From Isoetes taiwanensis (Eukaryota > Streptophyta > Lycopodiopsida > Isoetales > Isoetaceae), in the NCBI GenBank assembly GCA_021234155.1, contig JAJEKV010000008.1, positions 22,845,106 through 22,909,105 of the forward strand: a stretch of DNA of 64,000 nt. The letters run 5' to 3'. The notes below the pieces were generated by a model. The model had not been told where the DNA came from, searched no databases, and saw nothing but the letters and a program-made list of their open reading frames with translations. The translations under genes and the position numbers were made by a program. Positions within the stretch are counted from its first letter, which is position 1. Every line of letters begins with the position of its first letter. Positions 1 to 45,537 of this stretch are shown piece by piece.

Positions 1-171
1 TAGGACCATTGGCTCGGGTGTGCGCTGCGCCTTGTTTGTCAGGTATTTGGCAATGTTTGGAACATCACCTACATCTACCTCCTTTCGGAAGACATGGAAA
101 ATTTGGTCGATGTCGGCCTCGGCAGCATGAGCACTGGCGCTATACCATCTGCGGAAATCAGAAGTTGCCAT
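1..171 (-). CDS. Element A ORF2, N-terminal 57 residues (partial)
   Basis: The ORF starts at the ATG at 171-169 in a good context (ACCATGG) and stays open for 57 codons to the window edge. It begins MATSDFRRWYSASAHAAEAD. The start resembles ORF2 of element B, which begins MAATDLLAWYQDGEHWDLQ and also follows the H3-like ORF. Both share MA, then T/S-D, then W-Y at position 9-10. No known domain is recognised. The matching position and N-terminus argue that this is a real second accessory ORF of the family and not a chance reading frame. Confidence 0.6.
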   Translation of the reverse strand, partial: MATSDFRRWYSASAHAAEADIDQIFHVFRKEVDVGDVPNIAKYLTNKAQRTPEPMVL

Positions 172-484
172 TGGTTAAATGCGAAAGAGGGTATCAAACG
201 GTTGCAAGAGCACCTCAGGGAGTTGGAAAATCGGCTAAGAGGGCAGGAGCAAACTTGTAGGGTGCCTTGTGTAAAATAAGGGACCTATTTATAGGAAAGG
301 GGAAAACCCTAATTTTTGGATGACTTGGAAAATTTCTGGGGTTGGGCAATTCTAGTCTATACTGAGGTCAAAATGGGAATTTGAAAACTAGTTCAAGTGT
401 TTGAGCGTGGCTGGATTACCTAAAGAATGCTATACAACAGGTTGGGAATCATTCGGGCAAGTTTTGGTGAAGAAATGGTAGGAG

Positions 485-551
485 GTCTCACAGCTTGCGC
501 CTCGCTCAAAAACTAAAGTTTAGTTTCTTGTCCAGGCGCGAGCTGTGAGAC
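485..551. repeat. 67-base foldback repeat, copy 1
   Basis: The 18-base arms 485-502 and 534-551 are inverted complements with a single T/C change, which a G-U pair tolerates. The loop holds a second palindrome, AAACTAAAGTTTAGTTT. This is one of four copies within element A, lying between ORF1 and ORF2. Confidence 0.8.
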
Positions 552-685
552 ATCAGTCTCATTTTCATCAAAACATGACCAATTTGATTAAACTAAGGGT
601 GTAAGGATGATGGTCTCATCAAATCAGGTAGAATCGACCCCTTATTTGGTCGATTTGGAGCTGTTTCGGGCGTGTTTTGGGCAAG

Positions 686-752
686 GTCTCATAGCTTGCG
701 CCTCGCTCAAAAACTAAAGTTTAGTTTTTAGTCCAGGTAAGGATTGTGAGAC
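686..752. repeat. 67-base foldback repeat, copy 2 (right arm decayed)
   Basis: Same unit as at 485-551. The left arm (GTCTCATAGCTTGCGCCT) and the inner palindrome are kept, but the right arm reads AGGTAAGGATTGTGAGAC and has lost part of its pairing. Confidence 0.75.
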
Positions 753-831
753 ATCACGTCTTTCTATCTACAATTGTCCTATTTTTCCAAAATAAAAGCT
801 AAAACTTGCTAACTTATCCTAATTAAGCAAG

Positions 832-1103
832 TTCAGACAATTAAAGTACTCAAAATTGTTCTATTATCACAAAAATTTTTCGATTATTTACAAAAAGTTT
901 AGGGGCGTTCTCCCTTGATGTGAGTAGCAAGTTGCATGTCTTGCCTCATCAGAGTCACTCGCTTCGCTTCAGACAATTAAAGTACTCAAAATTGTTCTAT
1001 TATCACAAAAATTTTTCGATTATTTACAAAAAGTTTAGGGGCGTTCTCCCTTGATGTGAGTAGCAAGTTGCATGTCTTGCCTCATCAGAGTCACTCGCTT
1101 CGC
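832..1103. repeat. 136-base exact direct duplication
   Basis: Bases 832-967 are repeated at 968-1103. The unit covers the 3' end of the H3-like ORF1. It belongs to the constant 136-base series and is probably an untrimmed contig overlap. Confidence 0.9.
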
Positions 1104-2194
1104 ATGGACAGTGCAAGCTGTGGAGTCTTCAAAATCTTTGCACTATCTTCGCGCCACCGCTTCTCGGAGTCTGGCGAAATCAAAGATCTCGCTCTCAGGA
1201 CCTCAGAGTCCGATCCTAAAATCCCCTGCATCACTTCTCTAACTAGCCGAGCAAAGGGGCGGGGAATCGGGGAGGCCGAGCTGTGTTGGAAGTGTCGGAT
1301 TTCCCCGTAGTGCTCTCTGCCGAGCCGTTTCTTGGTAAGCTTCTTCTGTGCAGGCTTTTTCGGGGCCTTGGGCTTGGGTGGTGGCGGTCTTAGGGTCTGC
1401 TGCTTGGTTGGGTGTCCTCCTTCAATGGCCCCGACCCTCGTTTTTCCTGGTAGTACTTGTCGTATGCCTCCCACTCCTTCATGTAGGCATTGTGCCTGAT
1501 CGGTTACTACCTGTTCAACTACTACTTGTTCAACGGCCGGGGGTTTGGAAGAACTTGCCCCTTCTGTGTTGGGGTGAGGCTCTTCGTCAGAACTCTCCGA
1601 GGGGGTTGGGGGATGATCGGGTGGCCGTTCAGTAATGGTGATCTTCGGGTTGGGCTTTTTCACCCTGGGGACGTCCTTGAACTTCCTTGGGCTCCCCACC
1701 CATTTCCCTTTCTTCTTTTTGGTCTCCTCGGCCGATTTCTTCTCTTCTTCTTCCCTCTTCCTCTTCTTCTCTTCTCTTCTCTTTTCTCGGCGTTCGTATT
1801 TCCTGATAAACCGAGCGAGGTCTTTTTCTTCTTCTGGCTGAAGTTTCGGCTCCATCTGCTCCTGTTGCTCCTCCGCTTCCTTTTCTCGGATCCAGGCTTC
1901 GACTTGTTCTTCGATGGTCGGCTCTGGAGTGGGTGTCCTCCTTTCCTCTCGGGCTTTGGTTCTCCTTTCCCGCTGCGCTTCCTCCTCCTCCTCCTCAATT
2001 ACTTCCGTCCCTGCTTCCGAGTGTACTTCCTCTTCTCCATTGTGCTCGTTCGAAGGTTCTCCTTCACTCGAGGAAGTTGGGTCGTTAGGGTTAAGGAGGC
2101 GCTCCTGCAGCATGCGTCGAATCGTGCTTGCATCGACGGCGCCGGTCGCTTCGCCTGGGCGGGCTTTCCTCGCAGTCTGTTTGGTCCGTGCCAT
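1035..2194 (-). pseudogene. Element A ORF1: histone H3 chimera with intact H3 tail, broken fold
   Basis: The first reading frame runs 2194-1091 (367 residues). It starts MARTKQTARKARPG, identical to histone H3 through K9; S10 is replaced by A. Residues 30-250 are charged and low in complexity: glutamate runs, then an R/E/K coiled stretch, then a basic proline-rich linker (PPPPKPKAPKK). Near residue 290 the H3 fold begins: YGEIRHFQ, then PFARLVREVMQG matches the H3 alpha-1 helix (REIRRYQ...PFQRLVREIAQ). After that the frame slips. The H3 C-terminus continues in another frame at 1136-1035, with [15 protein letters not shown] and KGERP then stop, aligning gap-free to the last 33 residues of H3 (19 identical by my count). 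An in-frame TAG also lies upstream of this piece. So the tail is pristine and the fold is disrupted by a frameshift around 1150-1190, real or from assembly. The long tail and VTLMRQD wording lean towards a CENH3-like ancestor. Confidence 0.85.
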
Positions 2195-2406
2195 GTTTGA
2201 CGGATCGTCAATCGGATCTCGGGCGCCAAAGATCGCCTTAGGGAGCGAGAGCTGGTTCCTAAGGCGGGAATGTTCAAATGAGGGGGGTCTACTTCTATTT
2301 ATAGCTTTTCAAATTTTTAGGTCAAACTTCAAGTTGCTCTATTTAACATGCTAAGATACCTATTTAGTTAAAACTTACACTTATTTCAGACTTTTCCTAC
2401 TTATTG

Positions 2407-2473
2407 GTCTCACAGGTCGCGCCTCGCTCAAGAACTAAAGTTTAGTTTTTAGTCCAGGCGCGAGCTGTGAGAT
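2407..2473. repeat. 67-base foldback repeat, copy 3
   Basis: Same unit as at 485-551, in the leader between the primer site and ORF1 of element A. Arms are GTCTCACAGGTCGCGCCT and AGGCGCGAGCTGTGAGA(T). Confidence 0.8.
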
Positions 2474-2596
2474 CTCACACATCTTTAAGTAATTAATGTA
2501 ATCAAATCATGCTATTATTACTAATTCCTATCTTAGAATTAGCTTTACCCTATTAGTTTTCTCAAATTCATCATGTTTAAGTGATCTTGGCTCAAT

Positions 2597-2663
2597 GTCT
2601 CACAGCTTGCGCCTCGCTCAAAAACTAACTTTTAGTTCTTCGACCAGGCGCGAGCTGTGAGAC
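2597..2663. repeat. 67-base foldback repeat, copy 4
   Basis: Same unit, same leader. The arms pair fully with one G-U. The inner palindrome has changed to AACTAACTTTTAGTT. Two copies sit on each side of ORF1. Confidence 0.8.
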
Positions 2664-2730
2664 CACCTCACTTGGAAAAAATTTTTGGCTTATTCTTTTT
2701 AGTCTTATTAAATTCCAATTTACTTAATTA

Positions 2731-3002
2731 TTACTAGCTTAGCATAAACTACAAAGATGAGAAAAAATTTTCCCACTTTTCGAAGCTTAAGGATCCTACC
2801 AAGTTAGTACTACTGGGAGCATGGCCAGTGCTTTGCTCTTGGTCTCCAAGAACATGCTCTGATATGTTACTAGCTTAGCATAAACTACAAAGATGAGAAA
2901 AAATTTTCCCACTTTTCGAAGCTTAAGGATCCTACCAAGTTAGTACTACTGGGAGCATGGCCAGTGCTTTGCTCTTGGTCTCCAAGAACATGCTCTGATA
3001 CC
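2731..3002. repeat. 136-base direct duplication across the element A primer region
   Basis: Bases 2731-2863 recur from 2867. The offset is 136. The second copy runs into the primer binding site. Same artefact-like series. Confidence 0.9.
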
Positions 3003-3003
3003 A
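2992..3003 (-). other. Primer binding site of element A (tRNA-iMet type)
   Basis: The minus strand reads TGGTATCAGAGC, the standard site complementary to the 3' end of plant initiator tRNA-Met. It starts one base inside the LTR end, as expected for minus-strand DNA priming. Confidence 0.9.
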
Positions 3004-3004
3004 T

Positions 3005-4498
3005 TGTGGACGCCCCTACTGTGATAACGATGCCCGCACCGTATACAGGGGGAGTTCATCCCACATACACGTCAGTAACATAACATCATATATCCACCTC
3101 GAAGGGTGGCGCATCAACATCTGCATAGACAAAGATCAGCACAATACAAAGGAAGTTCCTACCCACGGCTCAGACACAGGGATGGACTGACAAGCTTGGG
3201 TCTCCAGAGTTCCTTGTAGACAGAATCATGACAATGGAGGGGGCTGGCATAAGAACATGGCATTGGGTTGTCCACTCCATCCGCCCCTCCTGTGCACACT
3301 TTGCAGAGTAGGTTGACAAGTGTTAGGACCCGACTGTAGCCCGCCGGGTGCGTAGCCAAAGGGGCTACTCCTGGGTTACATCTCCCCAGGCCCGATGGGG
3401 CAGGTAGGGATCACTCCCACCCGAGGTCTACATACTTTGCAGAGTAGGTTGACAAGTGTTAGGACCCGACTGTAGCCCGCCGGGTGCGTAGCCAAAGGGG
3501 CTACTCCTGGGTTACATCTCCCCAGGCCCGATGGGGCAGGTAGGGATCACTCCCACCCGAGGTCTACATGCTGACCCAAGGTGGACCGGAGGGCCACCGC
3601 CCTTATTCGACTTAACCCACTGGAAGGTGAACTCCACCCCCGGAAATCGAGAGCCCATGCCTTGCCCGCACGCAGTGGCAAGCCATTAGACCTAGTCACT
3701 CTGATCCCCGGTAGGCCTTACACACCAGAGGGATCGATCAAGGGTCAGAACACGAACCTCGTTCTGAGCCAGTCTGGTCCCTTCACCCTCAACCGGTGAG
3801 GTTCTTGTACAATGGCCTAAAAACTTGTAATGCACTAAGAGGGACTAACTAGGAGCATCATCTACTAAGCTTTAAGTCTCTACCCCCTTCCCAATACAAT
3901 GAGTTCACGTAATCCATCCGGTCCATCATATCAACATAACAAATAATAAAGAACTAATCTATCTCATAGAGTTAGGTTCTTTAGTTAGATCAATCTCGGG
4001 ATCTACTTAGCTGTTAGGGGTGATCTAATAGGCTAAACCCCTTTGGTTCAAGGCCGGAGTGAGGTTTATGCTATTTGATCGACCAAATACCGATCCCCGG
4101 TTCACTCCTCTCGATCCGGCGTCCATGTCTCGAGATGCGGTCGGAAGGGCGACCGACACCGGGCGTGCTGGCGCATCGTGGGAGTTGGAATCGACTCCTC
4201 AGCGCCTTGACCGGGAGCTCGGAAGGTCTGTGGGTGAAAAAGGGGAATGTTAGGGTTTGATGCCTTATGTAGGCTATTAGTTAGGGTTTAGGGTTTCCAT
4301 GACCCTTGGTCTACCTTTAATGGGTTAAAGGTCTAAAGGTGCGCGCATTGCTTAAGTGTGCGCACCATTGCAAGTTGCCCCCTAGGGCGCCCCTTGTATA
4401 CGTATCGCGCATTACGCCGTCGGATGGGCGGTAATGTCTGGATTCGGCCAGAAGCAGGTAACGCCTTGAGGCCGTATATATCGCATCGAACGTCCACA
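3005..4498 (-). repeat. 5' LTR of element A (1494 bp)
   Basis: The ends form an 8-base inverted repeat, TGTGGACG at 3005 and CGTCCACA at 4491-4498, with canonical TG/CA termini. The inner end abuts the primer site. It contains a 136-base duplication (3301-3572), so the true LTR may be about 1358 bp. It shares a short block with the element B LTRs. Confidence 0.85.
3301..3572. repeat. 136-base direct duplication inside the element A LTR
   Basis: The unit starting TTGCAGAGTAGG at 3301 recurs at 3437 with no differences for about 133 bases. Confidence 0.9.
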
Positions 4499-5039: not shown

Positions 5040-6005
5040 CTACCACCAATGTGTAGTAGAAATGAACAAGCGGGAATACGGAGGGGTCGCCTGCTACTAC
5101 TGGACAGTCTTAGCACAATCAATTTCCCTGTGCAAGACAGACAAGCACAATAGGTACCTGTGGGTGCGCGTGCAAAACTGCACTGGCAACCCTCTCTTTG
5201 TGGCGGCCTGCTACTTCCCACATGCTGAGAGCAACTTCTATCATGCCCACTCGGATGTGGATAGGCTTCCTATGCCGATATATACAATGACATATAGCAG
5301 CAAAAGCAGTGGGGTAGTGTCATGCTCATTGGAGACTTCAATGCACGCACTTGCACAGAACAGCCCATGAGATTTGGCCCTTTGGCAGATGGTGTGTTGC
5401 AACTGAACCCTTCAGAAGGAGCTTGGCCACGGGCATCGGCTCACATTCAGGCCATGTGCTATGGAAGGCAGTTGTTCTTCCTTTGTAGTATCTTTGACCT
5501 GGTGATTTGCAATGGACTAGCACCGTGGTCGTCCTCTCGCCAGTACACTTGCAGGCAGGAGAATCGGGGAGGCGGGTCCAGCGTGGTGGACTATGTGTTG
5601 GTGGCCGAGCAAGACATTCATGTCGTCAAGCACTTCCGAGTGGGGGCAGATGGTAGGGATGAGGAGGTGGACTCAGACCACCTACCACTCTACTTGCAGC
5701 TGGCTTGGCAGGTTGCTTCAACCACCTGTACAACACCTCCTCGATTACTATGGGCACGCTTAGACTTACTTCCAGATGCTCATAGAGGATCTGGCAAGCA
5801 TTCCACAGTGCTCTATGCTGGAGCAACAAGCGGACATGCTCATTGACGTCCTCGAGACTACTGCAAAAGGTGTTTTGGGAAAAGCCGCCCCCGACGAACC
5901 TCGAGGGCAACGACCTTCCCGTGTAACCAGTGGTTTAATGCTGAGTGCAAGGAACCGCATGCTCCTCATAAGTAGAGATTTGAGTGGCGCAACGTGGGCC
6001 CTCTA
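5040..6005 (+). pseudogene. LINE fragment 1: endonuclease domain
   Basis: Two overlapping frames (5062-5370 and 5322-5846) encode the exonuclease-endonuclease-phosphatase domain of a plant non-LTR retrotransposon. Visible motifs are GDFNAR near 5330 (the catalytic D/N strand), GGGSSVVDYVLV near 5570, and SDHLPLYLQLAW near 5672 (the terminal S-D-H motif). A frame change falls just before GDFNAR, and no reverse transcriptase follows, so this is a truncated, dead copy. It is related to the LINE copies at 7860 and 54940. The EEP domain nicks target DNA for target-primed reverse transcription. Confidence 0.8.
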
Positions 6006-7859
6006 GATCTGGGATCGACGGCCGACGCGGCGATACCCAAATCTCTACTTATAATGGGGCAGCTTATATAATTGCATATATATACAAGTTTTTTAATCGA
6101 TCCTACGGTGCATGTTCCAGTTTGTGCATGTTTCAGTTTTCTAAGAGTTTATGAAGATTCTCCCTTAGATTTCCTTAGTTTTTAGAGATTCTCTAGCCGG
6201 CGCCTTGTGCACCTCTGGGAGTCGAAGCCAAGTGTGACCCTTTTATTTATGGAAGTAGCTCGTTGTAGACGACATTTGTTGTAGTCCTGCTTGTATTTGA
6301 TTTGTGTGAGCCTATTATGTAGTGCCAAATGGAAATGACGGGTTGCTGGTAATTAGAATCTATAACTCTAACTTGTTCTACTCCAAAACTTATGGGTTCG
6401 CTCTTGGAATTGGTAGATGTGCTAGAGACAATGTAGGATTGGGCGGGATGTTTAATTAGTAAACATAGTTGTTATGCTTACCTAGTTTGCCTCGGGACAT
6501 TGTGTGGCAATGTTTTACTTTAGAGGCCTGGGCAATTGAATAAATGTATAATGGTTTTAGACCATTAAAGAAAAGGTGAGCACCCATAAATCGGGGGCTC
6601 ACCATTGATCTGGGGTAATCGACAGGTGCAGCAAAAGGTGCTGAAACAAATCGGATGTTTCCGATTTCTCTGCCATTGACCAGAATCATCAATCTAGAAA
6701 GGGAAAAGCACACACCAGATTTCTTCCAGTCCTTACCTGCTGTACACACCTTTTGCATTACACACCCTTGGGCATATTATAGGACCTTGAGGCAGTTAAG
6801 ACACTTTGTTTCTTTGCACGGCCTCATGGACAATTGGATGACTTGGGCATATGACTAGGTGGGTGAAGAAAATGTCGTTTTAGAGCCACATTGGATATAA
6901 AGAAGAATTTTGAATTTTAGAAATTACCATAATGTGGGTTGGGCGAATAGCCATCCACCACTATTTGGCAAGCTTTGGAGACACGTTATATACAAAATGA
7001 ATTAAAATTTATTGAAATGTGGTATAAGGCTTGGAAAGGAATCTTGTAGTTGTAAGGATATAGCATTATTGGACCTACTCTCGGCATGCTATATTTTAAG
7101 TGACGATGGGACCCGTAAAGGTAGGGGCATTAATTTCATTGACCCATTATTACTTGGACACCCATAAAGTTGGGTGCTTTAATTTCCTTGATCCTTTGTA
7201 ACTTGGACATACACGTATGGCATTGCAAAAGAAAAGGGGAAAGGAGAATCTTTCCCCACAAAGATTTGCATGATGGAACTTTCCATCTATGGATTTACTT
7301 TAAAAGGGCAATTTAAATTTGGAGCAGATTTAGATGGAAATTTGTGATTGGAAGGAGGTTGGAGCAGGGTTCGAAATTAGAATTTGCCCCAACCATTAAA
7401 AATGCCAGCTTACATTTAAGGCTGCCGGAAATACATGAAATTATAGTGTATTTTCCCGGAAATCCTTAGAAATTTCTCCGAAAATAGCCTGAAAAAACGC
7501 CGGGAATATTTTTTGGCTATCGGAAATTTTTTGGAATGACTGGATTTTTAAGGGTCGAACCCCCCCAATTTCGAACCCTGGGTTGGAGCTTTATTTATCC
7601 TAGTTTCTAGTTTAGTTTAGATATGCTAAACTTTAAGTGAGGTCGTACACATAAAATTCGAGGCTATAATTCCCTTGCCCATTGTAACCCGGACTAACAC
7701 GTATTATTATCTGACTCTTTTACCCTAGTGAACGCTGTTGTAGAAATAAAATTCTAGAGTGTGTAAGAAGAGTGCTTTGAACGGTAATGAAGGACCATAG
7801 CGGACTCTGCCAAGCTATGGTCAATCTATGGTGCGCTGCATTTTACAGATGTTCTTAAA
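6006..7859. other. Interval without recognised gene
   Basis: About 1.85 kb between two LINE fragments. Short frames on both strands (for example 6456-6758 minus) show no recognisable motif. Confidence 0.5.
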
Positions 7860-9345
7860 GAGTTGTTTCGGGAAACCACACGCTTTTGTTGCACGGTTAT
7901 GTTGCTTGGCGACTTTAATGCACGCACAGGAGCCGAGCAGGTCCCAAAATTTGAGCCCCTGGCAGAGGACGTCTTGCAGCTGAATCCCGCAGAGGTGGCT
8001 TGGTCAAGGGTATCAGATGACAACCATATTTCGCGCTATGGCAGGCAGTTGTTGTTGCTGGGTAGTATCTTTGATCTGGTTATTTGTAATGGGTTGGCAC
8101 AATGACCATCTTCCACCTGCTTCACTTGTAGACAGGAGAACCAATGAGGCGGCTCCAGTGTGGTGGATTATCTGCTGGTTGAGGAACAGGATCTGCACCT
8201 GGTTGCCCATTTTTCCATTGGAACAGACACTCCGGACGAGGAAGTGGACTCGGACCACCAGCCCTTGTTCGTGCATCTCCAGAGGCGGCTCCAGTGTGGT
8301 GGATTATCTGCTGGTTGAGGAACAGGATCTGCACCTGGTTGCCCATTTTTCCATTGGAACAGACACTCCGGACGAGGAAGTGGACTCGGACCACCAGCCC
8401 TTGTTCGTGCATCTCCATTGGCAAGCTCCCCCGCATCCTCGCCTCAACACCCGGGTGCCCTAGCTGCGCTGGACTACCCGCCATGCGGGGACCTATGCCC
8501 GGTTGCTGGAGCATGACCTGGCGGGACTGCAACTCCCCACACTTCAATAGCAATCTGCTGCTTGCGACTCACACTCCGGCGGCCGGTGAGAGGCGCTTTG
8601 GGAGAGGCTCCCTCACGTGAACCCGGGCACTACCACCTTCCCCTTAGCGGGGTGGTTGATGATGAGTGTTGGGAGCTCAAGCACACCTCCGCAAGTCAGC
8701 GATCCCACCTCCAGCCCCACGGGCCATCGGTCAATACCGCTCCTTCCTCAAGAGCAAGAAATCCGGCTACCTCAGAGCATCGATAGCAGATGTTTGGTCT
8801 CCGGATCGGCACCCCAAGACGATCGGAGAAGGGTCTTGAGCAAGGCTGCTGACCCGGGGAACATCACCCCTGAGCAATGGGTGCGGTATTTGCAGCGGAC
8901 TTTGACCCGACTTTCTCGGGCGCGGGACACCAATCCCTCCACAGATAGGCTTATTCAACAAAGCATTGCAAGAAGGCTTCCCTCCGCAGTGGACCACTAG
9001 TAGAGTTGTGCCCATATACAAGGCAGGGGACCCTCAATGCCCGGCCAACTATCGTACTATTATGGTCAGCTCTCTCTTTGCAAAACTGTTGGCTGGCATC
9101 CTTGAGCAGCGACTGACAATATGGGCAGAGGAGGCAGATGTGCGAGCTCTCACACAGGCAGGTTTTTGGCCCATGCATTCCACCATTGATCATATCTTCA
9201 CTCTGTGCACATTGATTGAGGATAGCAGGAATCACCGACAAAACCTGTACTGTTGTTTCGTGGATTTCGCAAAAGCTTTTGACACAGTGCCCCGGGACAG
9301 ATTATGGAACAGACTGCGGCAGCTGGAGACTCCCCTTGACTTGCA
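7860..9345 (+). pseudogene. LINE fragment 2: endonuclease and start of reverse transcriptase
   Basis: This copy is of the same family as 5040-6005. GDFNAR lies at 7908-7925, and SSVVDYLLVEEQD with DSDHQPLF lies near 8155-8270. The reverse transcriptase part follows at 8966-9345: VVPIYKAGDPQCPANYRTI and then FVDFAKAFDTVPRDRLW (RT motif A, with the FVDF aspartate). The frame breaks several times, and a 136-base duplication at 8146-8417 repeats the SSVVDYLLV part. The homology stops abruptly at about 9345, upstream of the catalytic DD motif, where it meets the interrupted host exon. LINEs normally lose their 5' end, so this 3' loss suggests a deletion or a misjoin. Confidence 0.8.
8146..8417. 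repeat. 136-base exact direct duplication in LINE fragment 2
   Basis: GAGGCGGCTCCAGTG... at 8146 is repeated at 8282 without differences. It duplicates the last endonuclease motifs. Confidence 0.92.
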
Positions 9346-9551
9346 GAGGAGCAAGAGCACCAAAATTTTGGCTTCTCCAAATAGCATGACTCCAAGCAAC
9401 AGCGAAGCACTCAACATTTTGTTCTGGAATAATAGGAAACTTAGATGAATTTTGTAGAGTCAAAGTAGGAACCTCCTCTTGGTCATCCAAATCATGGCTG
9501 TCACTATCATTATTTCCATCATCAAACAGATCATCTTCAATCGAATCTTCA
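9346..9551 (-). pseudogene. Downstream half of an exon split by element B
   Basis: Minus-strand reading from 9551 gives an acidic stretch (DSIEDDLFDDGNNDSDS) and then VECFAVAWSHAIWRSQNFG. It continues in frame the coding sequence that ends at 25284 on the other side of element B, once one copy of the CTTCA target duplication is ignored. The encoded protein is not recognised. At 9345 it abuts LINE fragment 2, so the gene is cut twice. Confidence 0.7.
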
Positions 9552-11794: not shown

Positions 11795-12686
11795 TTTGGC
11801 TTAAGATTAAGGTAAAACAAGCCAAGCTTAAAATTGGTAAGCGCGAAGAAGCGGCACCCGGATGGGCTGGGCCGTTCAAGATCACCTAACGCGTTAGGGA
11901 GCAGGCATATCGCCTCGAATTGCCACCCCGTTTGAAGATCCACAAGGTCTTTCATGTGAGTCTTCTAAAGCAGCACACCCCAGATCCAGAGGAGATCTTG
12001 GATACACCCACCCTACTTGAAATGACGAGAAGAGCATTTAGATATAGTGCACGAAGCTCTTCTTGATCGAAAACATATAAACGCACCGTGAAGGACCCAA
12101 ATGTTGCAATACTTGGTCAAGCGGGAAACACTTGCCGGTTGAGGATGCTACGTGGGTAATGGAAATAGACCTTGAGAAGCACTATCGATGATGGGATCAC
12201 CTTCGTGTTCCCTAGGACGTGGTGTACTGTCAACGAAGACATGACCGCGAATTGCTTGGAAAGCATTATGCCGCAATCAATTGCGAACCATAAACATGAT
12301 AGGTTCCCTTGTAGATAGATTTGCTTTTATTTCTTATAGGGAGTGGTCCCTTCAACCACAACCTAATTATTTTATCCATATAAACTAATGTGTTGACATG
12401 TGCAAGCCAGTGAGTAGTACGTGACCTGCCCATGTATAGAGGGTTGCTGATGACCCAACTTCTCCAGTTTTATTTTGTCTACAAGCCTTGTCTTTTTGTT
12501 ACTCTGATGTTGGTATTGGACTTCGGTCCTTGAACTTTTTGCTTACCATGAGCATGTGAAATGCACCTCGGTGCTTAAACTGTTTCAGACTTTAAAGTTT
12601 CAATGTATTATCTTCGGATACCTTTCTTCGTAATATAATTTTCTATTGTTGTATCTGACCCCAATGCTGAGGACAGCATTATTTCT

Positions 12687-12699
12687 AAGGAGGGGAGAA
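12687..12699 (+). other. Polypurine tract before LTR2
   Basis: AAGGAGGGGAGAA lies directly 5' of the TGTGACG LTR start, the position of the plus-strand primer. The same tract precedes LTR3. Confidence 0.8.
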
Positions 12700-12791
12700 T
12701 GTGACGTTCCATGTATTTATACGGAACACGTATAAACAATATGCTGACACGTCACCAACAAAGGTACGCCACCATGGGGTATTTTGACATT

Positions 12792-13063
12792 GACCTAAAA
12801 GGGATTTAATTAGCTATGTTAAATTAACCATTAAAGGATAATTATCCAATTATTTGAATTGGACTAATTGGCTATTTAGGGGAGCGCCACCTGGCCTAAT
12901 TCGATTGGCCAGCATGGGGACTTCCAAGACCTAAAAGGGATTTAATTAGCTATGTTAAATTAACCATTAAAGGATAATTATCCAATTATTTGAATTGGAC
13001 TAATTGGCTATTTAGGGGAGCGCCACCTGGCCTAATTCGATTGGCCAGCATGGGGACTTCCAA
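12792..13063. repeat. 136-base exact direct duplication in LTR2
   Basis: GACCTAAAAGGGATTTAATT at 12792 recurs at 12928. Confidence 0.92.
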
Positions 13064-13110
13064 ATTGGGTCACCAACTTGGAACTCAGGTGGGTGGTTAG
13101 GATAGCTTGA

Positions 13111-13382
13111 GAATTCTAGGGTAGCGCCCCTGTTGGGCACTTGTTGTGTTAGTTTCGTCTGTTCTCTCTGTGCTTTACTTGTAGGAACTAACCCTTGATT
13201 GTAAAGGTAAGTTCTCTTTATTTTGGATTCTGGTCTTGCTCTTAAAGAATTCTAGGGTAGCGCCCCTGTTGGGCACTTGTTGTGTTAGTTTCGTCTGTTC
13301 TCTCTGTGCTTTACTTGTAGGAACTAACCCTTGATTGTAAAGGTAAGTTCTCTTTATTTTGGATTCTGGTCTTGCTCTTAAA
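13111..13382. repeat. 136-base exact direct duplication in LTR2
   Basis: GAATTCTAGGGTAGCGCCCC at 13111 recurs at 13247. Confidence 0.92.
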
Positions 13383-14276
13383 GGATGGATTGATAGTTCT
13401 TTGCATAGTATTATTCTGGAAATGGGGGAAATAAGGGGGTAGAGACCGTGGAGCCATATTAGTAGTATACCCTAGGTTGACTCGAAATTCCATTATTATG
13501 CCGGCGACAAGAGACCATCGAGTTGTGGATGCTATGGAATTGCTTAGCACCAAATAAGGGACGCAGTGGTGAAGTGGGGGTGGGGACTTGCACGAACATA
13601 AAAGGCTCCTGAGACTCCTACAGTTGGCTAGGCCTGATAGCCAGTCACGAAGAGGGCCGGGTATGGGTCTGACACTCCCTGGGTGTAAAGGTGTGATCTG
13701 TATGGAGCATCTTGCACTTTGAGTAGATTTAGGGTGAGTAAGTCGGGTACGGATGCGGGGGTCCGTGATGCGGCACGTATTCTCTAGCTCACCCATGGAA
13801 CCACCGCGGGATCCCGAAGGGGACGCTTCCCGACCTGCCTCATCGGACGGGACTTCATGAACCTTGTAGTAGGCTCGAAGGGTGATACCTTGAGTCTGCA
13901 TGTCCGGAAGGCTATAGTGACGCCATAGCATGATTGGACTCATCTGCAAAGTGTGCACAGGAGGGGCGGATGGAGTGGACAACCCTAGCCGATGTTCTAT
14001 GCCAGCCAACGCCATGTCAAGATTCCGGTCCGCTGATCTCTTGAGACCTAGCCGTCATTCGGTCGATCCTCACCGGAGCTCCGAGCCGGGTAGAACCATG
14101 GAGCCCCATTGAAGGCGTGGGCCAAATGTCCCTTCTGTGTCCTTCACTTGAGCATCTTCTTATAGATGGCCCGAGTCGGACGGAGGGCCCTGCTCATGGT
14201 GAGTTGGTCGCCATGGGAGGGGAAAGTCCCCGTATGTATACGTCCGAGTGTCGTATATGTTCAGGGAGCGTCACAG

Positions 14277-14608: not shown

Positions 14609-15864
14609 ATGGCCAACACCAAGAGTACTGTGGACCCCGCTACCCTTACCATAGCTCAGATTTATGCTTTGATCACCCGGCACATGGCTACTGACCCTGC
14701 CTTGATAGATATAGTTCTGGACGAGTTGGTAAACAGATTTGAGAACAACGATAGGATCCCCTACCCAATTTACCATTACTCGGAGCCGTTTTTGGTCAGG
14801 CTGAATCTCCGACAGCTTCCTTACACCATGGCCGAGCAACCTGACTTGGTCATGATGCTAATAAAATTTTACCCTCCCGAATGTGAAGGCCACACTGAAG
14901 AGGAGGATATAAGTAAAGAGGCCGACCGCATTCGGAACTTGGCCAGGGAGGATGACCGCAGGGAAGTGGAGCGAGCCGATACAGCGGCTCGAGGTAGGGA
15001 ATACCGGTATCTTGGAGATGGAGTTGCCGTTATAGATGGCAGGGCCATCGAGATTCCCCCATACCAATGGCATGAAGCTTCCCAGAGCTTCACGTGGGGC
15101 GAGATCCCTGACATCAGCATAGATTATTTAACGACGATTCAGATAGATATGAACTGGAGTTGCCGTTATAGATGGCAGGGCCATCGAGATTCCCCCATAC
15201 CAATGGCATGAAGCTTCCCAGAGCTTCACGTGGGGCGAGATCCGTGACATCAGCATAGATTATTTAACGACGATTCAGATAGATATGAACCAGCGGCCCG
15301 ACCGATACCACATGAGAACTCCCTTCGCCGCATTGTAGAGCGACAATACAATGAGATTGAAGAAGACCCTGGAGAGCTTCGGGAGTACAAGGAGGAGCAG
15401 GAAAGGATCCAAAAGGAAAAGGAGGAGAAGGCGGCAAGAAGAGCACCGGATCAGCAGAGGCGATGGGGATCGTGGAGTGGGCGGGCCCAAACCCAACGGA
15501 GCATACGATTAAGCACCGGAGGAAACTGTGAGTCCGAAAAGTCCCGCAGCCAATACAAGGAAAAGTTGAAGACACTTGTCGGAGCCTTTGGGAAGAACGC
15601 CAGTTCCAGCCGGAGACAGGAGCGGGTGGATGCCTCTCGCCCCGGCCCGGGGCCAGGTAAGGGCCAAGACGATCCCGGGCCCAAGAGGTTAAAACCGACC
15701 TCCGCTTCCAGACTTTTGCCATCCTAGCGCTGCAAGAGGCTGCAGAAGCCTACCTGGTGGCACTCTTTGGTGATGCCAATCTTTGCGCTATCCACGCAAA
15801 GAGGGTCACCATAATGCCAAAGGATTTAGCCCTCGCCCGCAGGATTCGGGGAGAGCGTCCTTAG
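14609..15864 (+). pseudogene. Element B ORF1: histone H3 chimera with intact H3 C-terminus
   Basis: Starts at ATG 14609 in context CATGG with MANTKSTVDPATLT, possibly a decayed MARTKQT tail; V-D-x-x-T also aligns with VDAST in element A. A middle region of about 300 residues is mainly acidic and coiled (for example EYKEEQERIQKEKEEKAARR). It ends at 15682-15861 with 60 residues aligning gap-free to histone H3 from loop 1 to the end: [47 protein letters not shown], stop TAG at 15862-15864. By my count 47 of 60 match canonical H3 and about 49 match plant H3.3. The alpha-1 helix is not clear. The frame is broken by a 136-base duplication (15019), by a further one-base slip near 15130, and by another between 15600 and 15682, just where a splice-donor-like CAG/GTAAGG occurs (15654-15661). 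So it is either a spliced gene or a recently damaged one. Confidence 0.85.
15019..15290. repeat. 136-base direct duplication inside ORF1 of element B
   Basis: Bases 15019-15154 recur at 15155-15290 with one difference (CCC/CCG). 136 is not a multiple of 3, so the duplication shifts the ORF1 frame. Confidence 0.9.
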
Positions 15865-18459: not shown

Positions 18460-19797
18460 ATGTTGATGAAGAGGCAATTAGTCGAGTTACAAACTTATGT
18501 GTTGAATGCCAACCCACCGCACCATGTACAGATGGATGGACCGGAGCTACCTCCGTTGCCGCCAAGTCCACCACCACAGCAGCCACTTGCACCTGAACCA
18601 AGCCCCATGCCTGCACAAGGGAAGCACCGTTCCAAACGCCATCGAAGTTCCTCAAGGGGTAGTGCCACCTCCTCACAGTCAGCCACTTCTGTGTCCTTTG
18701 AGTCGTCTATATCATCCGGTGACCATGCAAACTGCCAGGACAAGGAGTACCGTAAGACGGTTGATACGGCCATAACTAGTATATGGAAGAATAGGAAACT
18801 GGCCCAGTTTGATGGGAAATCTAGAGGCGGACTAAATGCAGAATCCTGGTTGGACGAGATGAAGGAGTTTGGGAAATCCTATGGCATGACAAAAAAGGAT
18901 ACAGGAAAGGTTGCCACCGCAAACCTTACATGAGCTGCCCGTATCTGGTGGAAGGGCTATGCCAGAGCCAAGCATCTGGATCGAAGCAGATGCAAATTCT
19001 GAAAGTTTGCCAAAGCTTTTAAGTCACATTATGTGCCTCGTGCGCAGAAATGCCAACAAATCCAGACCTTTTATAGGTTAGAGCAGAAGGGTATGACAGT
19101 TCAGGCCTACACCGATGAATTCATGCGCTTGAGGCTGTATCTACCAGGAATGAATGAAAAGAGGGCAGTGGAGGGCTATATTGAAGGGTTGGCCCCATCA
19201 ATTAAACGAATGGTGAAGGCCATAGACCCGAAATCAGTTGCAGAGGCTGAGGCTAAGGCATTGAGCCTCAAGGAGGACACACCAAGAAACCAGTACCCGC
19301 GTCCTGCCCCTTACTCGCAGCCACGCCCGTCCACACCTTACAAACCCCGTTCGCCAAGTCCGGGGCCCTCTCAGCAGAACTCTTACGGCCGCCAGGAAAA
19401 GAAAGTCACCTTCAACATGTTCGACAAACCGAACAATGTCGGTAAGGAAGTTCGGAACCTCTTACAGTCTATTTCCAAAGAGGCTCGAGAACAGCTCCGC
19501 CGTGATAAGGCATGTTACAGGTGTATGCGGCCCGGGCACTTCATGCAGAACTGCCCTTATGTCACACAGACTGCACAGCTGGCCATGGCCGACCTCGATT
19601 GGGACGATCTCGAGTCAACACTACCTGTCGAGGAGGAGGCTTCCGAATACATTCACGGTGAGTCCCATATCCTTGCAGCCATTGAAACCGGCAATGCTGA
19701 AAGTCAGCCTGCCGTTATTTCCACTATAGGTCAAGTAGACAGCAAACCTTTTATAATTCTGATGGATACGGGAGTACACATAATTTTGCTTCCCCTA
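18460..19797 (+). pseudogene. gag: gag of element B, through zinc knuckle to protease active site
   Basis: The frame starts at ATG 18460, with a plausible open extension upstream (RLTPEQEL). It has a proline-rich and serine-rich N-terminus, then the retrotransposon gag domain (FDGKSRGGLNAESWLDEM, IQTFYRLEQKGMTVQAYTDEF). The CCHC zinc knuckle CYRCMRPGHFMQNC is at 19513-19554. Nucleocapsid and capsid function in particle assembly follows from the family. A TGA at 18931-18933 interrupts the capsid region before AARIWWKGY (CGA to TGA is likely). The frame runs into the protease start, [12 protein letters not shown], with the active-site DTG at 19765-19773, and is then shifted by a one-base loss near 19775. 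Confidence 0.85.
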
Positions 19798-21690
19798 GAA
19801 TGGCCCAGGTATTGCGGCTTGAAACTTTGAGATCCGGACCGAAGCCTGTCACTTTGGCCAGTGGTAAGATCAGACACACTAATGGCCGTCGCATTAACCT
19901 TAAGATGCAGTTGCCAGGTGCACCAGTTGCCTTGGGTGCTGAGATAATGGATATTGGCAAATATGATCTGATTGCTGGTATGGAATTCTTGGCATCTGCG
20001 AAAGCCAATATAGACTGCGAGAAACGGGAAGTTACCTTCGACGCCGCTAACGGAGCCCGAGTAACTATAAAAGGTGACTCCTTAAACCCCATTATGCAGT
20101 CTATCACCAGCAGGCAGTTAGATAAGGCTATACGTAAAGATAAGTTGCTTTGCATTATTAGACTTGCCTCCATTGAGTCAGATGCCAAGCAAAAGCAAGT
20201 AGTTGATACCTTGCCGGAAGGGATTGCCAATCTTCTCCGAGAGTTTAACGATCTTTTTCCAGATGAGATCCAAAAGCTTCCTCCTTTTAGAGGAGTAGAA
20301 TGTGAGATAGCTTTGGAACCAGGTACTAAGCCTACCAGTAAGGCCCCGTACCGTATGAGTCCCCCTGAGTTGGCAGAGCTTAAGAGGCAACTGCAGGAGC
20401 TATTAAACCTAGGCTTCATTCGGCCTAGTGTCTCGCCTTTTGGCGCTCCTATCCTTTTTGTTAGAAAGAAGGATGGCTCCTTAAGGATGTGTATTGATTA
20501 TCGGCAACTTAATAAGCATACCATCAAGAATCGCTATGCTTTACCTAGAGCAGACGACCTTATGGACTAGTTGCAAGGGGCCAAGTATTTCTCAAAGATT
20601 GACTTACGTTCGGGATACCATCAGATAAGAATTAAGGAGGAGGACATTCATAAATCTGCCTTTCGCACTAGATATGGGCATTATGAGTTTACTGTTATGC
20701 CTTTTGGATTAACTAATGCCCCCGCAACTTTTATGCGGTTAATGAACGATGTCTTCCGACAATACTTGGATGATTTTGTTGTTATTTTCTTTGATGACAT
20801 TCTCATCTACAGTAAGACACTGGAGGAGCATGAGGAACATCTTAGGTTGGCCCTACAGAAGCTAAGACGTCACCAGCTCTTTGCCAAGTTCTCTAAGTGC
20901 AAGTTTGCCACTCCGAAGGTCGACTATTTAGGCCATGTCATTTCGGCCGACGGAACCGCTACAGATCCAGCAAAAATAGAGGCAGTCAAGGATTGGCCTA
21001 TTCCTGGTAATGTGTCAGAGGTCCGAAGTTTCTTGGGATTGGCAGGATATTATCGGAAATTTGTTAAGGATTTTGCAAAGATTGCAGCACCGCTTACTAA
21101 TCTTACAAATCATGAGAAGGTGAAGGATTGGATTGAGCATTGGAAGGAAAAGGTCCAGGAAAGTTTCCAGCAGCTTAAAGATGCTTTAACGTCAGCACCA
21201 GTCCTCACTTTGCCCGATTCTGAAAAGGATAAAGTAGTGGCAACGGATGCCAGTAAGATTGCCACCGATGGAGTCCTAATGTAGGAAGGGAGGGTCATTG
21301 CCTATGATTCAAAGAAAATGAATGAAACTGAGCAGCGATACCCTACCCATGATCAGGAATTGTTAGCCGTTGTCTGTGCTCTACGTATATGGAGACACTA
21401 TCTTCTTGGTAGAAGATTCCAGCTGGATACGGATCATCAGAGCCTCCGTTATCTAACAACCCAGCCCAATCTCAATCTCCGTCAGAGAAGATGGATGGAG
21501 TTTCTCGAGGAATATGATTTTGAGATTATGTATAAGCCTGGGAAACACAATGTGGTTGCGGATGCCTTGTCACGCCATCATTTGGTGACCCGAACCCATT
21601 GTAACGCAATTTCCACACTCACCAGTGAGTTTGGGAAACAGATAGAACAGACCTTGGCCACAGATCCCCAGTTCCGTGATGTTGGGATAG
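19765..21690 (+). pseudogene. pol: pol of element B: protease, reverse transcriptase, RNase H
   Basis: After the DTG the protease continues in the next frame ([16 protein letters not shown] ... [13 protein letters not shown]). RT follows with [69 protein letters not shown] and the catalytic FFDDILIYS (DD at 20793-20798). RNase H shows [28 protein letters not shown] and LDTDHQSLRYL. TAG stops lie at 20568-20570 and 21282-21284, both where Q (CAG) is expected. The frame shifts near 21690, just before integrase. All domains of a Ty3 pol are present, but the copy is not translatable without corrections. Confidence 0.9.
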
Positions 21691-21691
21691 T

Positions 21692-23178
21692 TTGGCTAAG
21701 GAGGCACGCACAGATACAGAACATGAAGCTTTCCATTCGTATAAGAAAGAGGGCAATTTGTTATATTACAAGGATAAGTTGTGTGTACCTGAAACTTCAG
21801 GAGTGCGTAAGGTAATTCTCCATGACACGCACAACAGCCCTATAGCTGGACATGCAGGCTTTATGAAGACCTACTTTAAGATCCGCTCCAGTTATTTTTG
21901 GCCTTCGATGAAGAAGGACATTGCCAAGTACATTAAGCAGTGTCAGGTGTGTCAACAAACCAAGGCTGAGCAATTAAGAATTCCAGGTGAGTTGCAACCT
22001 CTGGATGTGCCTAACGCCAAGTGGGAAGTGATAACCATGGATTTCATTGTAGGCCTTCCACGTACTCTCCGTGGATACGATGCATTGATGGTAGTGGTCG
22101 ACAAATTGTCAAAAATGGCTCACTTCTTGCCATGTCGGACCACGGACAAAGCCTTTGATACCGCGCTGCTATTTGCAAAGGAGATCTTCAGGTTGCACGG
22201 AATGCCACGAGTTATTGTATCCGACAGGGATCCCAACTTCGTAAGTGCGTTCTGGAAAGATTTCTTTGCCACCATCCAGACCAGCTTGCTATGAGCACGG
22301 CCTATCATCCTCAGACGGATGGTCAGACAGAGCGTATCAATCGTATTATAGAGGACATGCTACGCAGTTATGTGTGGAGTAAGCAATCACAATGGGCTGA
22401 CTATATTTATCTAGTTGAGTTTGCCTATAACAGTATGAAACAAGAGTCTTCTAGAATGTCTCCATTCATGATAAATTATGGTTATCAATGCCTTACTCCA
22501 GACACATGGCATAACCCCGTTTCTAAAGTGGAGGTATCTCAACAACTCCTCTTGGAAATGCAAGCTTTGGTAGAAGAAGTTCGTGGGTACTTATTGGCTG
22601 CATGCAGTCGTCAGAAGAGTCTAGCGGATAAACACAGAACACCACGAGTCTTCCAGGTGGGTGAATCAGTTTGGCTTAAGATTAAGGTAAAACAAGCCAA
22701 GCTTAAAATTGGTAACTGCAAGAAGCTGGCACCCAGATGGGCTGGGCCGTTCAAGATCACCGAACGTGTCGAGGAACAGGCATATCGCCTGGAATTGCCA
22801 CCCCGTTTGAAGATCCACAAGGTCTTTCATGTGAGTCTTCTAAAGCAGCACACCCCAGATCCAGAGGAGATCTTGGATACACCCACCCTACTTGAAATGA
22901 CAGAAGAGCATTTAGATATAGTGCCTGAAGCTCTTCTTGATCGAGCATATAAACAGACCAGAAGGACCCAAATGCTGCAATACTTGGTCAAGTGGAAACA
23001 CTTGCCGGTTGAGGATGCTACGTGGGTAATGGAAATAGACCTTGAGAAGCACTATCCGGACTTCATGCGCCAATCTCAAGGCCGTACCATCAACGATGCT
23101 ATCAACCCCGCTCCAGACGGTAAGCTTGAAGGCTTGATTCGCCGAGAATCATGCAGTAGAGGGGTACATGCATCGTAA
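21692..23178 (+). pseudogene. Integrase with C-terminal chromodomain, element B
   Basis: The HHCC zinc-binding part runs from HDTHNSPIAGHAGF to CQVCQQTK (about 21825-21965). The DDE core has D in ITMDFIVGL (22040), D in VIVSDRDPNF (about 22222) and E in HPQTDGQTERINR (22330-22332). A frameshift near 22285 separates ATIQTSLL from MSTAYHPQTDG. The C-terminal part has the GPFKITERV/LKIHKVFHVSLLK fold typical of plant Ty3 integrases and ends with a chromodomain (MLQYLVKWKHLPVEDATW, 22970-23030). Chromodomains of chromoviruses read methylated histone H3 tails and steer insertion to heterochromatin. This is notable because the same element carries an H3-like ORF. Confidence 0.9.
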
Positions 23179-23693
23179 GTGATAATAGTTACCGATGATG
23201 GGATCACCTTCGTGTTCCCTAGGACGTGGTGTACTGTCAAGGTAGACATGACCGCGAATTGCTTGGAAAGCATTATGCCGCAATCAATTGCGAACCATAA
23301 ACATGATAGGTTCCCTTGTAGATAGATTTGCTTTTATTTCTTATAGGGAGTGGTCCCTTCAACCACAACCTAATTATTTTATCCATATAAACTAATGTGT
23401 TGACATGTGCAAGCCAGTGAGTAGTACGTGACCTGCCCATGTATAGAGGGTTGCTGATGACCCAACTTCTCCAGTTTTATTTTGTCTACAAGCCTTGTCT
23501 TTTTGTTACTCTGATGTTGGTATTGGACTTCGGTCCTTGAACTTTTTGCTTACCATGAGCATGTGAAATGCACCTCGGTGCTTAAACTGTTTCAGACTTT
23601 AAAGTTTCAATGTATTATCTTCGGATACCTTTCTTCGTAATATAATTTTCTATTGTTGTATCTGACCCCAATGCTGAGGACAGCATTATTTCT
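23179..23693 (+). other. 3' untranslated region of element B
   Basis: Non-coding stretch between the chromodomain stop and the polypurine tract, also present in the scrambled copy at about 12190-12686 with few changes. Confidence 0.7.
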
Positions 23694-23706
23694 AAGGAGG
23701 GGAGAA
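23694..23706 (+). other. Polypurine tract before LTR3
   Basis: AAGGAGGGGAGAA immediately 5' of TGTGACG. Confidence 0.85.
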
Positions 23707-25283
23707 TGTGACGTTCCATGTATTTATACGGAACACGTATAAACAATATGCTGACACGTCACCAACAAAGGTACGCCACCATGGGGTATTTTGACATTGA
23801 CCTAAAAGGGATTTAATTAGCTATGTTAAATTAACCATTAAAGGATAATTATCCAATTATTTGAATTGGACTAATTGGCTATTTAGGGGAGCGCCACCTG
23901 GCCTAATTCGATTGGCCAGCATGGGGACTTCCAAATTGGGTCACCAACTTGACCCCTAGCCCTGATTGACTCCCTAAAATCGTCCCAGAGGAGCAGGAGC
24001 TGAGCGCCCACCTTGCCAAGCACCTTTACCTGTGTAGCCAGATCCAGGGAAGATGGAAGCACCAAATGACAACGGATCCAGCAGGAACTCAGGTGGGTGG
24101 TTAGGATAGCTTGAGAATTCTAGGGTAGCGCCCCTGTTGGGCACTTGTTGTGTTAGTTTCGTCTGTTCTCTCTGTGCTTTACTTGTAGGAACTAACCCTT
24201 GATTGTAAAGGTAAGTTCTCTTTATTTTGGATTCTGGTCTTGCTCTTAAAGGATGGATTGATAGTTCTTTGCATAGTATTATTCTGGAAATGGGGGAAAT
24301 AAGGGGGGGTAGAGACCTGTGAGCCATATTAGTAGTATACTCCTAGGTTGACTCCTGTAATTCCCATTATTGCGGCCTGTGCACAAGAGACCATCGAGTT
24401 GTGGATGCTATGGAATTGCTTAGCACCAAATAAGGGACGCAGTGGTGAAGTGGGGGTGGGGACTTGCACGAACATAAAAGGCTCCTGAGACTCCTACAGT
24501 TGGCTAGGCCTGATAGCCAGTCACGAAGAGGGCCGGGTATGGGTCTGACACTCCCTGGGTGTAAAGGTGTGATCTGTATGGAGCATCTTGCACTTTGAGT
24601 AGATTTAGGGTGAGTAAGTCGGGTACGGATGCGGGGGTCGCTGATGCGGCACGTATTCTCTAGCTCACCCATGGAACCACTGTGATCCTGGAAGGGGACG
24701 CTTCCCCGACCTGCCTCATCGGACGGGACTTCATGAACCTTGTAGTAGGCTCGAAGGGTGATACCTTGAGTCTGCATGTCCGGAAGGCTATAGTGACGCC
24801 ATAGCATGATTGGACTCATCTGCAAAGTGTGCACAGGAGGGGCGGATGGAGTGGACAACCCTAGCCGATGTTCTATGCCAGCCAACGCCATGTCAAGATT
24901 CGGTCTGCTGATCTCTTGAGACCTAGCCGTCAGTCGATCCTCACTGGAGTCGGAGCCGGGGTAGAACCATGGGTTTGGATGTTTTCCTTAGTATTAAATG
25001 CATATTCTTTGCCGTTGTCACTTGGATGGATGTGCCACCCCTCGTGGTGGTAAATTAAGATGTGATTATGCTGTGTGCTAACCTTGTATTCATGCTTCCG
25101 CGACGTAGGAGCCCCATTGAAGGCGTGGGCCAAATGTCCCTTCTGTGTCCTTCACTTGAGCATCTTCTTATAGATGGCCCGAGTCAGACGGAGGGCCCTG
25201 CTCATGGTGAGTTGGTCGCCATGGGAGGGGAAAGTCCCCGTATGTATACGTCCGAGTGTCGTATATGTTCAGGGAGCGTCACA
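23707..25283 (+). repeat. LTR3 of element B (1577 bp, most complete)
   Basis: TGTGACGTTCC...GGGAGCGTCACA with a 7-base terminal inverted repeat, followed by target duplicate CTTCA. No 136-base duplication inside, so it is the best reference LTR. Confidence 0.9.
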
Positions 25284-45362: not shown

Positions 45363-45537
45363 TCATACTTCGGATCGCTTATGCGTAAGATCAGCAGCCA
45401 TTTGAAGAGCATTTAAGGCCGTTGCTTGAATCCTGTATGTGGCATTATATATAGCGCCACATTCTTGCAGTATCTCTTTCGCAAGCCTCGTAAATGGGAG
45501 ACGTGTAATGACCAACTCAGTGCTCTTCTGACCCTGC
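45363..45537 (-). CDS. Histone H3 / CENH3-like exon
   Basis: On the minus strand a splice acceptor (TATACGCAG) at 45538 leads into GQKSTELVITRLPFTRLAKE, then ILQECGAIYNATYRIQATAL and NALQMAADLTHKRSE, and a possible donor GTATGA at about 45367. QKSTEL and R-L-P-F-x-R-L match the H3 alpha-1 helix exactly, and ALNALQMAA matches alpha-2. Loop 1 is about four residues longer than in H3; a longer loop 1 is a mark of centromeric H3. Flanking exons (tail, alpha-3) are not found, so this may be a CENH3-like gene with long introns or a remnant. Not part of the LTR elements. Confidence 0.65.

Follow-up and report, generated by a model that had tools for sequence, protein, structure and literature searches.

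Chromodomain Ty3/gypsy retrotransposons of the quillwort Isoetes taiwanensis with an open reading frame for a histone H3-derived protein

The DNA analysed here (the window: 64,000 nucleotides, positions 22,845,106 to 22,909,105 of contig JAJEKV010000008.1, assembly GCA_021234155.1) comes from the quillwort Isoetes taiwanensis and contains, at its left end, part of a long terminal repeat (LTR) retrotransposon, termed here element 1, whose first open reading frame (ORF1) almost certainly encodes a protein derived from histone H3. Where intact, ORF1 specifies 425 amino acids: the exact H3 tail (MARTKQTARK), a charged insert of about 320 residues and a complete H3 fold. Element 1 is a multi-copy chromodomain Ty3/gypsy (chromovirus) family of the quillwort and, to judge from a pooled ratio of nonsynonymous to synonymous substitution (dN/dS) of 0.20, its ORF1 is maintained by purifying selection.

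An initial annotation, made from the letters of the window alone, had described a 367-codon frame that begins with an H3 tail and lies between an LTR and a second frame (ORF2). That frame is real (Table 1; its first residues are MARTKQTARKARPG), and at this locus it does lie 3' of an LTR and a primer binding site (PBS). Its tail peptide, ARTKQTARKARPG, retains R2, K4, Q5, R8 and K9, with alanine in place of S10 (ARKA instead of ARKS), so that the described tail is borne out. The helices of the H3 fold had been assigned to the same frame; this is correct for PFARLVREVMQG (within 1223-1270) but not for the end of the fold, KGERP-stop, which lies in another frame, the fold of this copy being broken by a frame change near 1206-1222 and then by a TAG at 1143-1145. 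Because the fold is split in this way, a Pfam search with the window's own 367-residue frame finds no match up to an expectation value (E) of 0.1, whereas two intact copies elsewhere in the genome match the histone family that had been proposed (PF00125; E of 1.3e-28 and 1.4e-28). The exact 136-bp tandem duplication that overlaps the 3' end of ORF1 is most likely an assembly artefact, and it does not give rise to the H3 similarity. With exactness required over 95% or more of the unit, there are 12 such duplications in the window (832-1103, 2731-3000, 3298-3569 and 8146-8417, and at 10964, 11521, 12792, 13110, 28909, 30028, 45534 and 54623), 6 in the adjoining 20 kb and 0 in the other 141 kb examined; they probably represent a frame-breaking artefact local to this region of the contig.

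The sequence is by no means confined to a single copy, which the initial annotation had named as a possible objection. A search of the species' own genome (1,658,258,908 bases in 1,110 contigs) with ORF1 began from 26,093 candidates, scored 111 of them and gave 213 matches. In the 30 loci read in detail, which are those most similar to the window copy, the tail is exactly MARTKQTARK in 22, altered in 4 and without alignment in 4; a reading from tail to fold end without a stop is found in 6, many copies being damaged. ORF1 is nevertheless still open in two copies whose LTR pairs are just 2.3% and 4.0% diverged (33/1,460 and 55/1,371 sites, counting substitutions only; with gaps counted, the BLAST pieces of LTR pairs are 89-96% identical). 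The intact protein has an H3-type histone fold, both by its Pfam match (E about 1e-28) and by a structure model of the fold alone (the full-length prediction is poor, with a pLDDT confidence score of 57.7); 53 of 88 fold residues are identical to host H3, and 10 of 12 H3-H3 interface residues are kept. In canonical H3, of about 136 residues, the tail is joined straight to the fold; here the insert of about 320 residues intervenes, and the protein is H3-derived rather than a canonical H3. A model of low overall confidence places long helices within residues 66-163 and within 266-298. Past the window's left edge there is also an element-1-type fold remnant (L049:2254-2385, minus strand), about 82% identical to the fold of the family.

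Selection on ORF1 was estimated over copies, as the initial annotation had envisaged, from those 13 of the 30 loci in which a single alignment spans 380 residues or more with no more than 2 stops. Pairwise dN/dS, pooled, is 0.20 overall, 0.175 for the fold and 0.18-0.25 for the insert, with the reservation that the pairs are not independent and that the sample was drawn from the 30 loci with the greatest similarity to the window copy.

The retrotransposon class follows from other copies, in which ORF2, although its frames are broken, reads gag, protease, reverse transcriptase, RNase H, integrase and chromodomain. The gag region matches Retrotrans_gag (6.7e-17), its zinc-knuckle match being weak (0.015), and an aspartyl protease is also present. 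Pieces of two copies (L038 and L047) contain reverse transcriptase (PF00078, 8e-27), PF17917, PF17921 (H2C2), PF00665 (2.5e-9), PF24626 and a chromodomain (PF00385, 1.4e-10)--that is, a gypsy-type pol with a chromodomain at the C-terminal end of the integrase, which defines a chromovirus. One copy (C1049) has LTRs of the form TGTGACG...CGTCACA, a PBS, a polypurine tract (PPT) and a 5-bp target site duplication (TSD), AAATT, seen in this one of the three copies inspected for their ends; an insert splits the 3' LTR of the C1049 copy.

In the window, element 1 runs on the minus strand in the order LTR, PBS, leader with two palindromes, ORF1, two further palindromes and ORF2 start. Pieces of its LTR are found again about 8.8-10.1 kb past the window's left edge, with 91-100% identity by piece. 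The primer site, TGGTATCAGAGC, which we take to be of the tRNA-iMet type, is present with at most one mismatch in 4 of 6 other copies. The four palindromes, near-identical and about 67 nt long, flank ORF1 two per side at a spacing that is constant in 5 of 6 other copies (1 of the 20 palindromes in those five is only partial; the sixth retains the downstream pair). As RNA they would form hairpins of about -41 to -43 kcal/mol (z of -8.3 and -8.8 for the two that were folded); just 1 of 24 base pairs shows two-sided change, so that they may act as RNA or as DNA, and a ribosome shunt, a splice loop-out or a cassette border are all possible. An Rfam scan at the gathering threshold and a tRNA scan of the window gave no match.

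H3-tail starts are abundant throughout the genome. A pattern search for MARTKQTARK in any spelling, host genes included, finds 1,051 (reversed control 0), and MART-x-QTAR occurs 1,902 times (reversed control 0, host genes again included), with Lys at position 4 in 1,888. Of these 1,888 tails, 1,051 have Lys at position 9; a further 753 have a codon there whose second base is T (Ile 314, Met 80, and Leu, Val or Phe 359, so that Ile and Met together account for 394), 26 an MGN codon (Arg or Ser) and 9 another VAN codon, the remaining 49 codons being unassigned. The 97 K9 tails listed, which also include host genes, have 55 distinct DNA spellings; six of them stand at ORF1 places (C65, by nearness, C147, C209, C380, C539 and C676), and the tail at C539 has the commonest spelling of the list, yet its ORF1 is just 61% identical to that of the window. 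The tails outside ORF1 places, including all those with a hydrophobic residue instead of K9, presumably belong to H3-carrying elements. Fifteen places score as host-like H3, and the 8 that were read are separate, canonical 136-codon genes.

Plants silence retrotransposons by way of H3K9 methylation. Against this background the ORF1 protein may be, with a confidence slightly short of even, a variant of H3 which disturbs H3K9-based silencing, either through pairing with H4 or by occupying the enzymes that act on the H3 tail. The protein would reach the nucleus, bind host H4 through its fold and be placed into nucleosomes, or be kept beside chromatin, displaying an extended and displaced tail. 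This tail would occupy or block H3K9 methyltransferases and readers, as a substrate sink or as a poison, and the lowered H3K9 methylation at the element would permit more transcription, or more integration by the chromodomain integrase. S10 is a phospho-switch beside K9, and its loss removes the switch; the subfamily of the window would thus present a K9 tail free of S10 phosphate, whereas other tails in the genome would present Ile or Met at position 9. Should those tails be of this kind, they would match the lysine-to-Met/Ile substitutions of 'oncohistones', which act dominant-negatively on H3K9 enzymes. A parallel for such interference is a plant virus that evades silencing by inhibiting the H3K9 methyltransferase KYP (PMC4606454 in PubMed Central, PMC).

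Several observations weigh against this account. The 15 tail codons have a dN/dS of 0.50, though on very few changes (pS 0.030, as compared with 0.35 overall, and pN 0.015), so that tail conservation within the subfamily may be partly at the nucleic-acid level. On the DNA side of the fold, R40E, Y41Q, K53H, R63P, K64R, F84V and K122Q distinguish ORF1 from host H3; in the core, 10 of the 27 positions listed are changed, L65A, L103H and L109A being the least conservative. In the 7 copies for which downstream DNA was read, ORF2 is never in one open frame. The Ile and Met tails were counted rather than read, so that their place in H3-carrying retroelements is presumed, and no MART-x-QTAR start was found near any of the 4 checkable ones among the better-scoring histone-fold places described below. 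Finally, group I chromodomains, which bind methylated H3K9, have a cage of Y24, W45 and Y48 (PMC3350952); the integrase chromodomain of element 1, read by eye from alignments to Chd1-type domains, has W45, but the other two cage residues are not aromatic (PELIL..., KWKHLP). Because two cage aromatics are missing, a direct link of the integrase to methylated H3K9 is weak; with W45 alone, the domain resembles plant group II chromodomains (PMC3350952).

The H3-variant reading is favoured because tail and fold are both kept, at opposite ends of the insert: a decoy would need the tail alone and a packing protein the fold alone, so that retention of both suggests, as the simplest reading, a variant that pairs with H4, its interface residues being largely kept. 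It is unlikely that ORF1, through an H3-derived basic domain, simply packs nucleic acid beside Gag in the virus-like particle, with no part for chromatin and with its tail serving only as a basic peptide or nuclear signal. The location of ORF1 directly ahead of gag-pol, the highly charged insert and the long helices of the low-confidence model would suit such a role, which, however, leaves unexplained both the near-invariance of K4 (1,888/1,902) and the kept H3-H3 interface (10/12). Quite unlikely is a soluble decoy, in which the tail alone titrates readers and writers of H3K4 and H3K9 and the fold is a remnant; an exact tail in many synonymous spellings (55 among the 97 K9 tails listed) and the 394 tails, out of 1,888, whose ninth residue is Ile or Met agree with it, but the fold is under constraint no weaker than that on the rest (0.175). 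Less probable again is a passenger, an H3 copy that the element captured and amplifies although it has no use for it: many copies are damaged, with 6 of 30 uninterrupted from tail to fold end, and fungal hAT elements do hold decayed H3 copies (PMC6710886), but dN/dS is 0.20 across diverged subfamilies, K4 is constant, and ORF1 remains open in the two copies with little-diverged LTR pairs.

A longer loop 1 and a divergent tail characterize CENH3, and a fold of this origin might steer a chromovirus to centromeres. The element fold does have HFQ, LLIP and VTLMR in common with a plant CENH3 fragment (49/89 identical); its score is nevertheless 257 with host canonical H3 as against 205 with that fragment, its loop 1 is as long as that of host H3 and 2 residues shorter than that of the plant CENH3, and its tail is canonical up to K9, all of which makes a centromere guide highly improbable. 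The initial annotation had also considered that a host H3 or CENH3 gene might have been misjoined into an LTR element. The local 136-bp duplications are the sort of defect that would favour this; against it stand the 111 scored genome-wide candidates, the LTR, PBS and gag-pol around the copies read (with a TSD in one), and the eight host H3 genes read as separate 136-codon genes, which leave it practically no probability. A host gene or misjoin was thus ruled out, by the multi-copy, LTR-flanked ORF1 and the separateness of host H3.

Element 1 has the same gag, CCHC motif, protease, reverse transcriptase, RNase H, H2C2 integrase and chromodomain as the chromoviruses of non-seed plants, as well as LTR, PBS, PPT and 5-bp TSD; it differs from them by the upstream ORF1 with its H3-derived protein, the like of which is not mentioned in the excerpts of PMC3350952 and PMC2864245. 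Extra ORFs beside gag-pol occur in Retrosat2 (ORF0; PMC3485330) and in elements of bdelloid rotifers (PMC5408684), none of them a histone according to the opening lines of the abstracts. H3-like sequence is likewise carried and amplified by fungal hAT elements: in Pyrenophora tritici-repentis there are full-length H3L genes with expressed sequence tags (PMC3538342), and in Pseudocercospora fijiensis 94% of the H3 copies consist of exon 3 only, most being truncated and inactivated by repeat-induced point mutation (PMC6710886). These, however, are DNA transposons, whereas element 1 is a plant LTR retrotransposon with tail, long insert and fold, apparently under purifying selection. Parasites with a host-type histone are also known among DNA viruses, unlike element 1 (bracovirus CvBV-H4, which has an extended N-terminal region, singlet H3s and nudivirus Orf1; PMC9145170), and the string 'retrotranspos' is absent from the main text of that review. 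The oncohistones (K27M, K36M/I) include the K36M/I of chondroblastoma (PMC11748643), and Met or Ile at K36 is paralleled by Ile or Met at K9 in the other genome tails; the element 1 protein differs in its 425 residues, its insert, its retrotransposon origin and its own retained K9. The word 'histone' is absent from the main texts of the papers on the genomes of I. sinensis and I. taiwanensis and from a 2026 review of gene capture by plant transposons (PMC13317346). The claim that no LTR retrotransposon family with an H3-derived ORF had been described agrees with the open-licence PMC literature, where no report was found, though absence there is no proof of novelty; as far as the literature searched goes, ORF1 is a gene new to chromoviruses.

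If the H3-variant reading is right, a retrotransposon lineage that encodes its own H3 tail and fold, retains them under selection and multiplies them would be answering silencing directly, with the very substrate on which the silencing machinery acts, and its H3 is a natural source of H3 variants; if the counted tails are of this kind, they would amount to a natural side-by-side experiment with K9, K9I and K9M on the writers of H3K9 methylation. A broader version is unlikely: that a retrotransposon superfamily has made H3 an anti-silencing weapon, with well over 1,000 element tails divided between a K9 'sink' branch and a 'poison' branch with an aliphatic residue (Ile, Met or other) at position 9, which would be a natural analogue of the oncohistones and would poison H3K9 methyltransferases. 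Annotators should in any case be cautious, since in genomes of this kind many matches to 'histone H3' may in truth be genes of retroelements.

Homologues were sought among candidates 0.55-1.75 times as long as the query, so that ordinary H3 was not eligible. The whole ORF1 gave none at E <= 0.001 among 8,000 candidates scored, the search probably being swamped by low-complexity words, and its first 56 residues gave none at E <= 1 among 34. With the fold of an intact copy there were 12 matches among 66 candidates (those named being two from Caenorhabditis and one from Cudoniella); 0 of the 10 sequences read starts with MARTKQTARK.

A second chromovirus, element 2, lies on the plus strand of the window (Table 1). 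It is 69% identical to element 1 over protease and reverse transcriptase and 76% over integrase with the chromodomain region, and its LTR regions are 92-100% identical by piece. Its fold piece is identical to host H3 at 51 of 60 positions (85%) and groups with host H3 in a small fold tree, in which element 1 stands on a long branch (100%). With 20-82% support at its deep nodes, the tree is compatible with one H3 capture or with two; the common ending GERP (host GERA) hints at a single capture. The N-terminus of element 2, MANTKST, resembles MARTKQT. A third H3-like fragment in the window may be an exon of a CENH3-like or some other H3 pseudogene. In a genome search with PF00125, a family that covers all core histones, 150 of 8,705 candidates were scored, and 135 of the 150 lie outside the 15 host-like places; these 135 (144-155 bits, open frames of up to 494 residues) may be element-2-like.

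Table 1. Coordinates of elements 1 and 2 and of a further H3-like fragment in the window
Feature	Position	Strand	Remark
5' LTR of element 1 (TGTGGACGTTCG...GGGGCGTCCACA)	3005..4498	-	includes one 136-bp duplication artefact
Primer binding site of element 1, TGGTATCAGAGC	2992..3003	-	tRNA-iMet type
Palindrome 1, leader of element 1	2596..2667	-	hairpin of ~67 nt
Palindrome 2, leader of element 1	2406..2477	-	
ORF1 of element 1, 367-residue frame	1091..2194	-	H3 tail, charged insert, H3 fold start; disrupted copy
Exact H3 tail MARTKQTARK in ORF1	2165..2194	-	
aN-a1 part of H3 fold (EIRHFQ...PFARLVREVMQG)	1223..1303	-	in ORF1 frame
a2-a3 end of H3 fold, ends KGERP-stop	1035..1142	-	other frame than ORF1
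Exact 136-bp tandem duplication (832-967/968-1103)	832..1103	.	overlaps ORF1 3' end; probable assembly artefact
Palindrome 3, between ORF1 and ORF2 of element 1	685..756	-	
Palindrome 4, between ORF1 and ORF2 of element 1	484..555	-	
ORF2 start of element 1 (MATSDFRRWYSAS...)	1..171	-	leaves window
Left LTR region of element 2	12183..14275	+	
Element 2 ORF1 N-terminal frame (MANTKSTVDPATL...)	14609..15211	+	
a2-a3 piece of the H3 fold in element 2, ends RGERP-stop	15679..15861	+	other frame than 14609-15211
Element 2 gag-pol	18460..23178	+	with chromodomain region
Right LTR region of element 2	23190..25283	+	
Third H3-like fragment, H3 residues 56-98	45390..45530	-	longer loop 1

The window also contains degraded LINE-like pieces at 5322-9448 (+), where an RVT_1 frame (3.6e-10) accompanies a weak match of endonuclease type (E 0.016), and a frame with a B3 DNA-binding domain (PF02362, 3.9e-8) at 48284-49030 (-). 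Two frames at 50276-51616 (-), of which the upstream one, the frame that was scanned, has a sub-threshold match to HTH_Tnp_4 (7.5e-4), presumably resemble a Harbinger-type DDE transposase.
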